From Gilvimarinus xylanilyticus (lineage in GTDB: Bacteria; Pseudomonadota; Gammaproteobacteria; Pseudomonadales; Cellvibrionaceae), in contig NZ_JAMFTH010000001.1 in the NCBI RefSeq assembly GCF_024195295.1, positions 1,364,001-1,428,000 on the forward strand: a DNA stretch of 64,000 nt, written 5' to 3'. The position numbers were made by a program, and so were the translations under genes. A model generated the notes under the pieces. It made no database searches. It saw nothing but the letters and a program-made list of their open reading frames with translations, and was not told where the DNA came from. Positions 19,321 through 21,427 of this stretch are shown here, in pieces (position 1 is the stretch's first letter; each line of letters begins with the position of its first letter).

Positions 19321-19941
19321 ATGAAGCAAATCTTTATTAAAGCGCTTGCCGCCATCGCTCTTAGCCTAGGCACTGTGACAGCAGCCGCTGACGACTCGGA
19401 CTCCCTGGTCACTTTTAATACCGATCTGGGCCCTATGCTGATTGAGCTCTACCCAGAGCAGGCCCCCATTACCGTTGCTAACTTTCTCCAGTATGTCGAC
19501 AGCGATTTCTACGACGGTACGATTTTTCACCGGGTTATTCCGGGCTTTGTGGTTCAAGGCGGCGGCTTTACCTTTGATTTTAATCGCAAAGAAACCAATG
19601 AGCCGATCAAAAATGAGTCAGACAATGGTTTAAAAAACACCTACCTGACCCTGTCCATGGCACGCACCAACGCCGTAGACAGCGCCACCAGTCAGTTTTT
19701 TATCAACCTGAAGCACAATGAGTCCCTAGACGGCAGCCCCGAAAAGCTCGGCTACGCGGTGTTTGGTAAAGTAATTAAAGGTGAGGCTGTGGTAGAGAAA
19801 ATCGTCGCCGAACCGCGCGGCATTTTTCGCTCCTATCCCGATGCTCCCAATGCAGCGGTGCGTATTCTGGAATCTAAGCGCGGCGACCATATGAAAGAAT
19901 TTCAACCCACCTCAAAACTCAAAGAGATGATTGCCGAGTGA
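19321..19941 (+). CDS. Periplasmic peptidyl-prolyl isomerase (cyclophilin)
   Basis: PpiA-like folding catalyst. A signal peptide (about 1-24, ending in TAAADD) directs it to the periplasm. The cyclophilin core has FHRVIPGFVVQGGGF, MARTNAVDSATSQFFINL and GYAVFGKVIKG, so the catalytic Arg, Phe and Gln-bearing motifs are intact. The start is the ATG at 19321; an in-frame GTG at 19306 lies inside the preceding gene. The stop overlaps the GTG start of pdxJ. The last 25 residues (KRGDHMKEFQPTSKLKEMI) extend beyond the usual fold. Confidence 0.9.
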   Translation: MKQIFIKALAAIALSLGTVTAAADDSDSLVTFNTDLGPMLIELYPEQAPITVANFLQYVDSDFYDGTIFHRVIPGFVVQGGGFTFDFNRKETNEPIKNESDNGLKNTYLTLSMARTNAVDSATSQFFINLKHNESLDGSPEKLGYAVFGKVIKGEAVVEKIVAEPRGIFRSYPDAPNAAVRILESKRGDHMKEFQPTSKLKEMIAE

Positions 19942-20696
19942 GCACTGCATTAAGCGTCAATCTGAATAAAGTTGCCCTTATTCGCAATTCCCGCGAGGGC
20001 AACTTCCCCAGTCTGATCGAGTTTGGCAACATCAGCCTGGAGGGCGGAGCCCAGGGGCTTACAGTACATCCACGCCCGGACCAACGCCATATTCGCCCAG
20101 GTGATGTCTATGACCTAGCTAAGGTCGTTAAGAGCTTCCCCGACGCGGAATTTAACATCGAGGGCAACCCCTTTGCCGCCGCTCAGGGCGACTACCCAGG
20201 GTTGATGCAATTGGTCGCCGATACACAGCCAGACCAATGCACTCTGGTGCCGGACAGTGACGATCAACTGACCTCGGACCACGGCTTTGATCTGACCACC
20301 CAAAGTGAGCGCCTGGCCCCCATTGTCGAACAGCTGCATCAACTGGGTGTCAGAGTGAGTCTGTTTATGGACCCAGATATTGAACAGATTAAACTAGCAC
20401 GAGAACTGGGCGTAGCCCGCATCGAGCTTTATACCGGCCCCTATGCGCTCAACTACCCTAGCGCCCAGCATTCGGCTTGCCTTGAGCAATACCGCCAAGC
20501 GGCGGATTACGCCCGCGGCATCGGCCTGGCGGTAAATGCCGGGCACGACCTGAATCTGGACAACTTACCTGACTTCCTTTCCATCGCCGGTATTGCCGAA
20601 GTATCCATTGGCCATGCGCTAACCGTCGATGCCCTGCGCTTTGGCATGCCCCAAGCGGTAACCCGCTACCTGCAGATTTGCCAGCGTTCGGCTTAA
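19938..20696 (+). CDS. pdxJ: Pyridoxine 5'-phosphate synthase PdxJ
   Basis: Condenses 3-amino-2-oxopropyl phosphate with deoxyxylulose 5-phosphate to form pyridoxine 5'-phosphate, the last ring-forming step in vitamin B6 synthesis. The TIM barrel shows NLNKVALIRNSR, GLTVHPRPDQRHIR, FNIEGNP, CTLVPDSDDQLTSDHGFD, VSLFMDP, RIELYTGPYA, AGHDLNLDNLP and EVSIGHAL. Length (252) is normal. The start GTG lies within the cyclophilin stop region (GTGA overlap), indicating coupling. A MITE-like element begins 21 bp after its stop. Confidence 0.93.
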   Translation: MSTALSVNLNKVALIRNSREGNFPSLIEFGNISLEGGAQGLTVHPRPDQRHIRPGDVYDLAKVVKSFPDAEFNIEGNPFAAAQGDYPGLMQLVADTQPDQCTLVPDSDDQLTSDHGFDLTTQSERLAPIVEQLHQLGVRVSLFMDPDIEQIKLARELGVARIELYTGPYALNYPSAQHSACLEQYRQAADYARGIGLAVNAGHDLNLDNLPDFLSIAGIAEVSIGHALTVDALRFGMPQAVTRYLQICQRSA

Positions 20697-20713
20697 TTTG
20701 AACTACACTGGAA

Positions 20714-20988
20714 CTAAGGAACCTCTGATTAAGTCCTCAGCGGCCTCTGCGCGAGTCCAAAACGTTCACTCCGCAAGGCGCGCTTCGCAGGTAATGGCCA
20801 TAGCCCTTGGCAAGAAGTGCAACACAGCGGATGGACGTTTTGGCCGCGCCCTTCGGGGCTTGCAGAGCTTTCCGATCTCTGCGTTGGCTCACCTCACCGG
20901 GCCGTCAGCACGCCATCGGCTCGCCGCCTTAACCTCGAAAAGCTCTGTAAGCCAGAGGCTGCTGAGGACTTAATCAGAGGTTCCCTAA
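20714..20988. mobile_element. MITE-like element, 267 bp, 4-bp CTAA duplication
   Basis: The element proper is 20718-20984. Its ends are inverted repeats: GGAACCTCTGATTAAGTC at the left and GACTTAATCAGAGGTTCC at the right. They match perfectly for 24 bp and continue to about 32 bp with one mismatch. CTAA occurs directly on both sides (20714-20717 and 20985-20988) as a target duplication. An inner pair of arms (near CCAAAACGTTCACTCCGC and GCGGATGGACGTTTTGG) adds a second foldback. It has no transposase; the 91-codon frame inside is not gene-like. A 4-bp YTAR-type duplication suggests movement by an IS5-family transposase elsewhere in the genome. Confidence 0.88.
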
Positions 20989-21010
20989 TGCTGTAGAAGG
21001 AGTATTACCC

Positions 21011-21427
21011 ATGCATTCCATTTTAGTTCGCGACTATATGCAACAAAACCCGGTCACCTTTGACCGCAACACCAACTTGCTGCAAGTGGTGCACAAATTA
21101 TTAGCCGCCAAAGAAACTGGCGCCCCGGTGATTAACGAGCGCCGCGAGGTCATCGGTTTCATCTCCGAACAGGATTGTATTAAAGAAATTCTCCAGGGCG
21201 CTTTTTACTGCGAAGATCCGCCGGTGGTGGCCACTGTTATGAGCACCCAAGTGATCAGCTTTGCCCCCGACAATTCAATTGTCGAAATCGCCCAAACCAT
21301 GATCACCCAAAAACCCAAAAACTACCCGGTGATCAGCGAAGGCAAGCTGGTGGGCATGATCAACCGACGCGATGTCCTGGCCGCACTGCTAGACAATGAC
21401 GAGGACTGTTATCTGCGGGTGAACTAG
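21011..21427 (+). CDS. Two-CBS-domain protein
   Basis: A 138-residue cytoplasmic protein made almost only of a CBS pair: VRDYMQQNPVTFDRNTNLLQVVHKLLAAKETGAPVINERREVIGFISEQD, then ATVMSTQVISFAPDNSIVEIAQTMITQKPKNYPVISEGKLVGMINRRDVL. Stand-alone CBS pairs usually bind adenine nucleotides and act on partner proteins. AAGGAG lies eight bases before the ATG. It is separated from pdxJ by the MITE-like element. Partner unknown. Confidence 0.9.
   Translation: MHSILVRDYMQQNPVTFDRNTNLLQVVHKLLAAKETGAPVINERREVIGFISEQDCIKEILQGAFYCEDPPVVATVMSTQVISFAPDNSIVEIAQTMITQKPKNYPVISEGKLVGMINRRDVLAALLDNDEDCYLRVN

Follow-up and report, generated by a model that had tools for sequence, protein, structure and literature searches.

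A Foldback Element Downstream of pdxJ in Gilvimarinus xylanilyticus and Its Fold-Conserved Core, Which Probably Exchanges Ends

The Element between pdxJ and the CBS-Domain Gene

In the 64,000-nucleotide stretch of Gilvimarinus xylanilyticus DNA analysed here (the window), a non-coding element of 267 bp (20718–20984) lies between two co-directional genes, pdxJ upstream (19938–20696, + strand; Pfam PdxJ, E 3.9e-81) and a CBS-domain gene downstream (21011–21427, + strand; Pfam CBS, E 2.8e-24). It begins 21 bp downstream of the stop codon of pdxJ (20694–20696), and the ATG of the CBS-domain gene is located 22 bp past the right flank of the element. If the 267 bp and one copy of the flanking CTAA are subtracted, 43 bp remain between the stop codon and this ATG. 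The element is bounded by terminal inverted repeats of 24 bp, GGAACCTCTGATTAAGTCCTCAGC, at 20718–20741 (+ strand) and, inverted, at 20961–20984 (− strand); the two are identical and first differ at base 25. CTAA flanks them exactly on both sides as a target-site duplication (20714–20717 and 20985–20988). The wider 35-nt end arms (20715–20749 on the left) are 94% complementary, and two additional foldbacks are found in the interior of the element. Thus, the perfect ends, the exact duplication, the length with its double foldback, and the distance from pdxJ are all as described in the original prediction, which was made from the letters of the sequence. An element of 267 bp is too short to accommodate a transposase gene.

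The two inner foldbacks are arranged as inverted arms. Arm 1 (20745–20854, + strand), itself one of the 22 arms from which the core model R1 (described below) was built, is matched by R1 with 91.3 bits (E 6.9e-23 in the window); arm 2 (20851–20959, − strand) is matched with 73.4 bits (E 5.6e-18 in the window). Each arm is interrupted by an internal loop, with an AAGGCG side at 20775–20780 and a CAACAC side (consensus CAACGC) at 20820–20825 in arm 1, and with a CAACGC side at 20881–20886 (GCGTTG on the + strand) and an AAGGCG side at 20925–20930 (CGCCTT on the + strand) in arm 2. A central linker, CCC-TTCG-GGG (20849–20858), connects the arms. The original prediction also supposed that the element could serve as a terminator or promoter for the CBS-domain gene, but scans of 20600–21060 for terminator and sigma-70 promoter consensus sequences found no such site.

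Copies, Flanking Duplications, and Empty Sites

A BLAST search of the own genome with the window element gave 72 pieces, including seven other near-full-length copies of 91–97% identity, and a catalogue of this genome comprises 19 loci with window-type ends, 18 of them with both ends found. These elements are 176, 224, 266–267, or 359–362 bp long. Matches occur in 18 of 58 genomes (own included), so that a search with the 267-bp sequence, suggested as a check in the original prediction, indeed reveals multiple copies. No match to the element was found in plasmid and phage collections, and viral contigs gave a single match, to an element end.

Among 107 collected elements with window-type ends, 58 have identical 4-bp flanks, and in 48 of those 58 the flank is YTAR, which agrees with the proposed MITE nature and YTAR-type duplication. 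By source, the exact flank is kept in 2 of 18 elements of the own genome (the window element included), in 13 of 21 from relatives, and in 43 of 68 from public contigs among the matches listed. Since only 2 of 18 own-genome copies retain it, most of them look old or damaged. At L033 (G000:C1:1695647) in the own genome, a 30-bp remnant has TTAG on both sides, and end-to-end palindromes of about 27 bp are seen at L158, L191, and L207; these are possibly nearly complete internal deletions or minimal elements.

The order pdxJ–CBS is kept in six of seven same-genus genomes (tblastn), and the window element is absent in all six. The gaps between the two genes in these relatives are 47 (G001), 134 (G002), 86 (G003), 59 (G004), 123 (G006), and 87 bp (G007), the 47 bp of G001 comparing with 43 bp in the window without the element. 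In the seventh genome (G005), the stretch after pdxJ yielded no CBS match, and R1 had no match at any of 13 pdxJ loci. Recent movement, proposed on the basis of the perfect ends and duplication, is therefore plausible for the window copy, with its exact flank and its absence from relatives, although no helper transposase of the group is found in the genome; at the level of the family, the old-looking or damaged copies that prevail in the own genome speak against it.

Shortly after pdxJ (20704–20709 in the window) and immediately to the left of the insertion lies a hexamer, TACACT/TACAAT, which the six syntenic relatives from the same genus (L252–L257) all retain. This hexamer may represent the −10 box of the CBS-domain gene, in which case the element would sit in the leader of this gene.

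An IS5-Type Helper

A scan of public contigs with GGARCCTCTGATTAAGTC returned at least 119 stretches. One of these, L162, is a 1149-bp insertion sequence (IS) with exact GGAACCTCTGATTAAGTC ends on both sides, that is, an IS with the matching ends that had been sought. Its 315-residue frame is matched by DDE_Tnp_1 and by the NCBIfam IS5 family transposase model (E 1.1e-101); the IS is flanked by TTAG and CTAA, which do not constitute a direct duplication. G029, which belongs to the same family as the own genome, contains five further ISs of 1146–1147 bp; their ends are of the GGAACCTCTGAA type, and each has CTAG, CTAA, or TTAG repeated identically on its two sides. The L162 protein has matches in 115 of 390 genomes of the order, the own genome not being among them. 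About 12 of 30 IS5-type loci of the order were found by eye to have GGA...TCTGA-like ends and YTAR flanks, the end search used on these loci having rewarded equal flanks; the rest are unclear or spurious.

The 13-contig assembly of the own genome has no match to PF01609 (DDE_Tnp_1) and none to the L162 protein. By eye, no likeness past the ends was seen between the window element and the ISs of L162 or G029, and R1 found no core in the three IS loci tested (L162, L104, and L265). Because these loci are devoid of the core, the window MITE did not arise from any of the three by simple internal deletion.

Perfect ends, target duplication, many copies, empty sites, and IS5-family ISs with the same ends together support the assignment of the window element to non-autonomous transposable elements (MITEs) with IS5-type ends and YTAR duplication. 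Neither of the two observations that could have gone against it did so: ISs with matching ends exist, and relatives have sites without the element. For the proposed mobilization in trans, the type of helper is well supported, given L162 and the five ISs of G029, yet the helper itself is not seen in the own genome. An IS5-family transposase, now undetected there, would have acted on GGAACCTCTGATTAAGTC ends, moved the window element in trans, and inserted it at YTAR.

The Two-Arm Core

When folded as DNA, the window element and diverged elements alike are predicted to form an outer stem from their ends, with two arms and a CCC-NNNN-GGG linker inside; elements of shorter length have a single arm. 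The core consists of two hairpin arms of about 109 nt; in two sets of 100 loci, all 73 elements with two arms have them head to head. In the internal loop of an arm, AAGGCG faces CAACGC or CAACAC. When 107 elements forming 25 sequence clusters were inspected for motif and pairing, a candidate arm, doubtful in some cases, was recognized in 77 elements of 15 clusters. The ten other clusters, also with window-type ends, had no candidate arm and contained other palindromes instead, but members of two of them (L182 and L164) were later matched by R1. IS5-type ends are also seen to enclose unrelated palindromes at L193, L232, and in other clusters; as the same ends cap unrelated palindromes, capture of foldbacks between them seems to have been repeated.

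R1 was built from 22 of 106 candidate arms, chosen to be at most 80% alike, 104–114 nt long, and well paired; all were taken from elements whose ends are GGN...CTCTRA-like. When aligned, these arms do not vary at AGGCG and AAC, and both partners have changed in 28 of 30 pairs. Pairing is found in 87.7% of cells, compared with 56.2% after shuffling and 37–44% when partners are slid. A larger arm set, A2, contains 150 R1 matches from 100 loci; for 149 distinct arms, the proportion is 91.1% versus 54.6% in shuffled ones. All these pairing and loop figures lean towards structure, since motif and pairing served to choose the first arms and R1 the later ones. In 61 dissimilar arms (loci L325 upward), a single letter accounts for 87–100% of each AAGGCG and CAAC column, but for 28–57% in 27 of 28 outer-stem columns and 82% in the remaining one; loop positions 4–6, after CAA, vary, with G at 67% and A at 54% in two columns. 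Most arm matches are about 103–112 nt long. As comparison of the arms shows, the interior can be considered a separate module of two inverted arms of about 109 nt around a CCC-NNNN-GGG centre, in which conservation of the predicted pairing and of the internal loops extends much further than that of the sequence.

Inserts of about 47–52 bp with a small hairpin (loop TCCA/TGGA) occur at the conserved arm loops or in the central CCC-GGG linker at L009, L010, and L017–L021 (the 359–362 bp class of the own genome) and at L326, L343, L336, L338, and L341, and the elements carrying them differ in their ends. They possibly represent a second, nested mini-element targeting arm loops. A regular-expression search for inserts of about 47 bp gave 19 matches, seven of them near arms, with a pattern that was too strict.

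One Core with Unlike Ends

In the own genome, R1 matches 66 places, two of them in the window. The elements there fall into five groups by their ends: the window type (19 loci), GGGCRCCTCTATTAATCC (7), GGGCCTGTTCACACTAATTA (10), GCAGGCTGTTGAAAAACCCC (4), and TGTCCTGTTCGAGAAGTTCG (3). Both ends were found in 39 of these 43 loci, and 24 of the 39, with all five groups represented, are 262–267 bp long. The GGGCCTGTTCACACTAATTA, GCAGGCTGTTGAAAAACCCC, and TGTCCTGTTCGAGAAGTTCG ends are unlike the window type, and R1 matches the elements with E-values from 5e-6 to 3e-19. The GGGCRCCTCTATTAATCC elements were considered as a further end swap and rejected: they align with the window element at about 81% from end to end, and since the alignment runs through the ends, they are its diverged relatives.

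R1 matches are also widespread outside the own genome: of 369 genomes from the class, 127 have them, as do 119 of 398 from the phylum, own included in both cases. These searches accepted E-values up to 0.001, applied strict filters, and scored nine or ten places per genome, so the copy numbers per genome are floors. Altogether, no fewer than nine unlike kinds of end are associated with the arms, and three of these kinds are present in the own genome. The six others, grouped by eye, are TRCTCYTTCAAGGTAATAA with CTAG flanks (L349, L352, L362, and L364), AAGACAAACGATAA (L348, L373, and L442–L444), CCCGGCAACCTAATATG (L356), TGGGCCAAGTGGAAAG (L353), AGGGGGCAGGTCGAAATAA (L372), and ATACCAATTTGATTAAG (L399); R1 E-values for unlike-end elements outside the own genome range from about 1e-14 to 5e-20. 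An automatic end search on 207 elements gave no clear end pair in 56, all of them single-arm.

The relationship of cores with unlike ends is also apparent when the ends are removed. BLAST comparison of 70 cores with ends cut off gave 77% identity over 177 bp between a TGTCC-type element (L388) and a TRCTC-type one (L453), 81% over 134 bp between L343 and the TGTCC-type L326, 74% over 185 bp for another best pair of unlike end kinds, and 80% over 85 bp between L005 (window type) and L325 (TGTCC ends). The pair of the window-type L087 with L332 was left out; another element, this one with GGGCCTGTT ends, is also present in L087. The arm-bearing records include plasmids of Pseudomonas aeruginosa, Azotobacter chroococcum, Halomonas, and Pseudoalteromonas, and no listed gene lies beneath the arm matches there, the gene tables being incomplete.

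Interpretation and Rival Explanations

In our opinion, the window element is very probably a MITE with a portable, fold-conserved core that exchanges its ends and, by changing ends, changes helpers; the claim rests on sequence comparison. The core would then be an evolutionary chassis selected for its structure. What the fold is good for can be answered more cautiously. One tentative suggestion, held with less than even confidence, is that it serves the element itself, in mobility or survival: each end meets the same arm in the same orientation, and such two-arm symmetry would fit a fold serving both ends alike. A broader reading, with a little less than an even chance, is that of a phylum-wide IS satellite in which one folded core, conserved in structure and in its AAGGCG/CAAC loops, has repeatedly captured the ends of different transposon groups and, in its folded single-stranded form, is read by a conserved factor, either cellular or of transposon origin.

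It is rather unlikely that the core acts as RNA, namely as a protein-binding or processing site that makes an insertion tolerable in either orientation. Such a role would suit the head-to-head arrangement in 73 of 73 two-arm elements, because transcription would always meet the first arm in sense, as well as the position of the window element between co-directional genes. The pairs of the motif strand point the same way, with 216 G-T pairs versus 32 A-C mismatches in 95 dissimilar arms and 21 versus 5 in a Watson–Crick-only count on 24 arms. However, this excess is confined to a few columns, which weakens the RNA reading; in low-wobble columns the counts, which vary with the redundancy cut, are 28:13, 15:11, or 10:8. 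Single arms, for which orientation should matter, were expected in sense to genes, and this was not borne out. Of 134 arms without a partner hit, 52 were excluded for lack of a close end pair, 10 as lying at an edge, 10 as far from genes, 5 as duplicates, and 3 as inside an ORF; the genes considered were the longest ORFs only. Among the 54 left, 25 are tandem antisense, 13 tandem sense, 13 divergent, and 3 convergent, so the tandem ones lean antisense (25 versus 13, p 0.07; 21 to 7 in a smaller version of the count). Rfam likewise offers nothing in favour of an RNA, as no match was obtained for 20500–21200 at E up to 1, nor at the cut-off on the arms of 19 further loci; a mir-301 match on the L325 arm reaches 27.4 bits (E 0.054), far below the cut-off of 56.

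Two other explanations dispense with a selected fold or with the core itself. Template switching can correct imperfect palindromes, and the core might accordingly be an old palindrome kept by DNA mechanics alone (cruciform extrusion and template-switch correction, which restore the match between the two sides of a stem), its covariation reflecting mutation bias and not selection. Window-type ends do hold unrelated palindromes too, as if any foldback may suffice. Correction of stems, however, would not protect loops, and it is the unpaired AAGGCG and CAAC columns that are most conserved in the model-found arms, with the outer stems varying; arm length, moreover, stays at about 103–112 nt in most matches. 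Such an origin is thus considered improbable. The same capping of unrelated palindromes by window-type ends would be expected if the window element were an ordinary IS5-derived MITE and the unlike-end cores were chance matches of a permissive model to palindromes. This is hardly believable in view of the E-values of unlike-end elements both in the own genome and elsewhere, the invariable head-to-head pairing, the BLAST similarity of cores with unlike ends, and the common length of 262–267 bp in 24 of 39 two-ended elements from five end groups of the own genome. The portable core that exchanges ends is the reading preferred here.

In L382, a match to the cobalamin riboswitch aptamer (1333–1495) abuts and slightly overlaps the left edge of an element copy.

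Comparison with Known Systems

The MITE in the window is itself of a known kind; the novelty lies in its interior, a core that also occurs between ends of other kinds. The usual view of MITEs is that they are decayed remnants of one insertion sequence. Here, the lasting part would be the core and the changing part the ends, which decide the helper. With IS5-family ISs (the NF033581 group), the window element has in common GGA...CTCTGA-like ends and YTAR duplications; it differs in having no transposase gene and, by eye, no sequence shared past the ends with the ISs of L162 and G029. REP/REPIN sequences, with a palindrome of 20–40 bp, a GTAG/CGTC tag, and a RAYT partner, differ from it in both size and ends. 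We know of no shared folded core for Tn3-derived TIMEs. According to the available part of their description, TIMEs are likewise mosaic, non-autonomous, and dependent on helper ends, but these ends are of the Tn3 family (PMC4133298). The bacterial IS-mobilized MITEs of PMC10969869, as far as the accessible text of that paper goes, are also short and non-coding, with inverted repeats, target duplication, many copies, and a helper in trans, and no mention of differing terminal repeats, chimeric elements, or a conserved core was found in this text; in the present case, the core fold is conserved across many bacterial families and combined with at least ten kinds of end. The R200 and R26 repeats of Pseudomonas fluorescens are similarly intergenic and a few hundred bp long, a likeness drawn from their description in the accessible portion of PMC2718517, where some of the repeat families are termed MITE-like.

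A core with exchangeable ends was found described neither in the literature, of which few subscription papers were covered, nor in Rfam, published repeats being compared by description, and individual core-bearing families may well have been reported already under other names. The nearest published statement found is that on QMITE1 of Coxiella, for which the available part of the report describes, in a single species, ends that vary around a conserved core (PMC5896051). QMITE2 from the same source has direct repeats of 7–9 bp and is also present in some alphaproteobacteria; both are foldback MITEs of a gammaproteobacterium, as is the window element, and both were compared with the present core by their description in the accessible text (PMC5896051). 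The wide distribution of the core raises the question of what reads its fold in so many proteobacteria, and one family defined by this core would replace many repeat families that are otherwise named separately.
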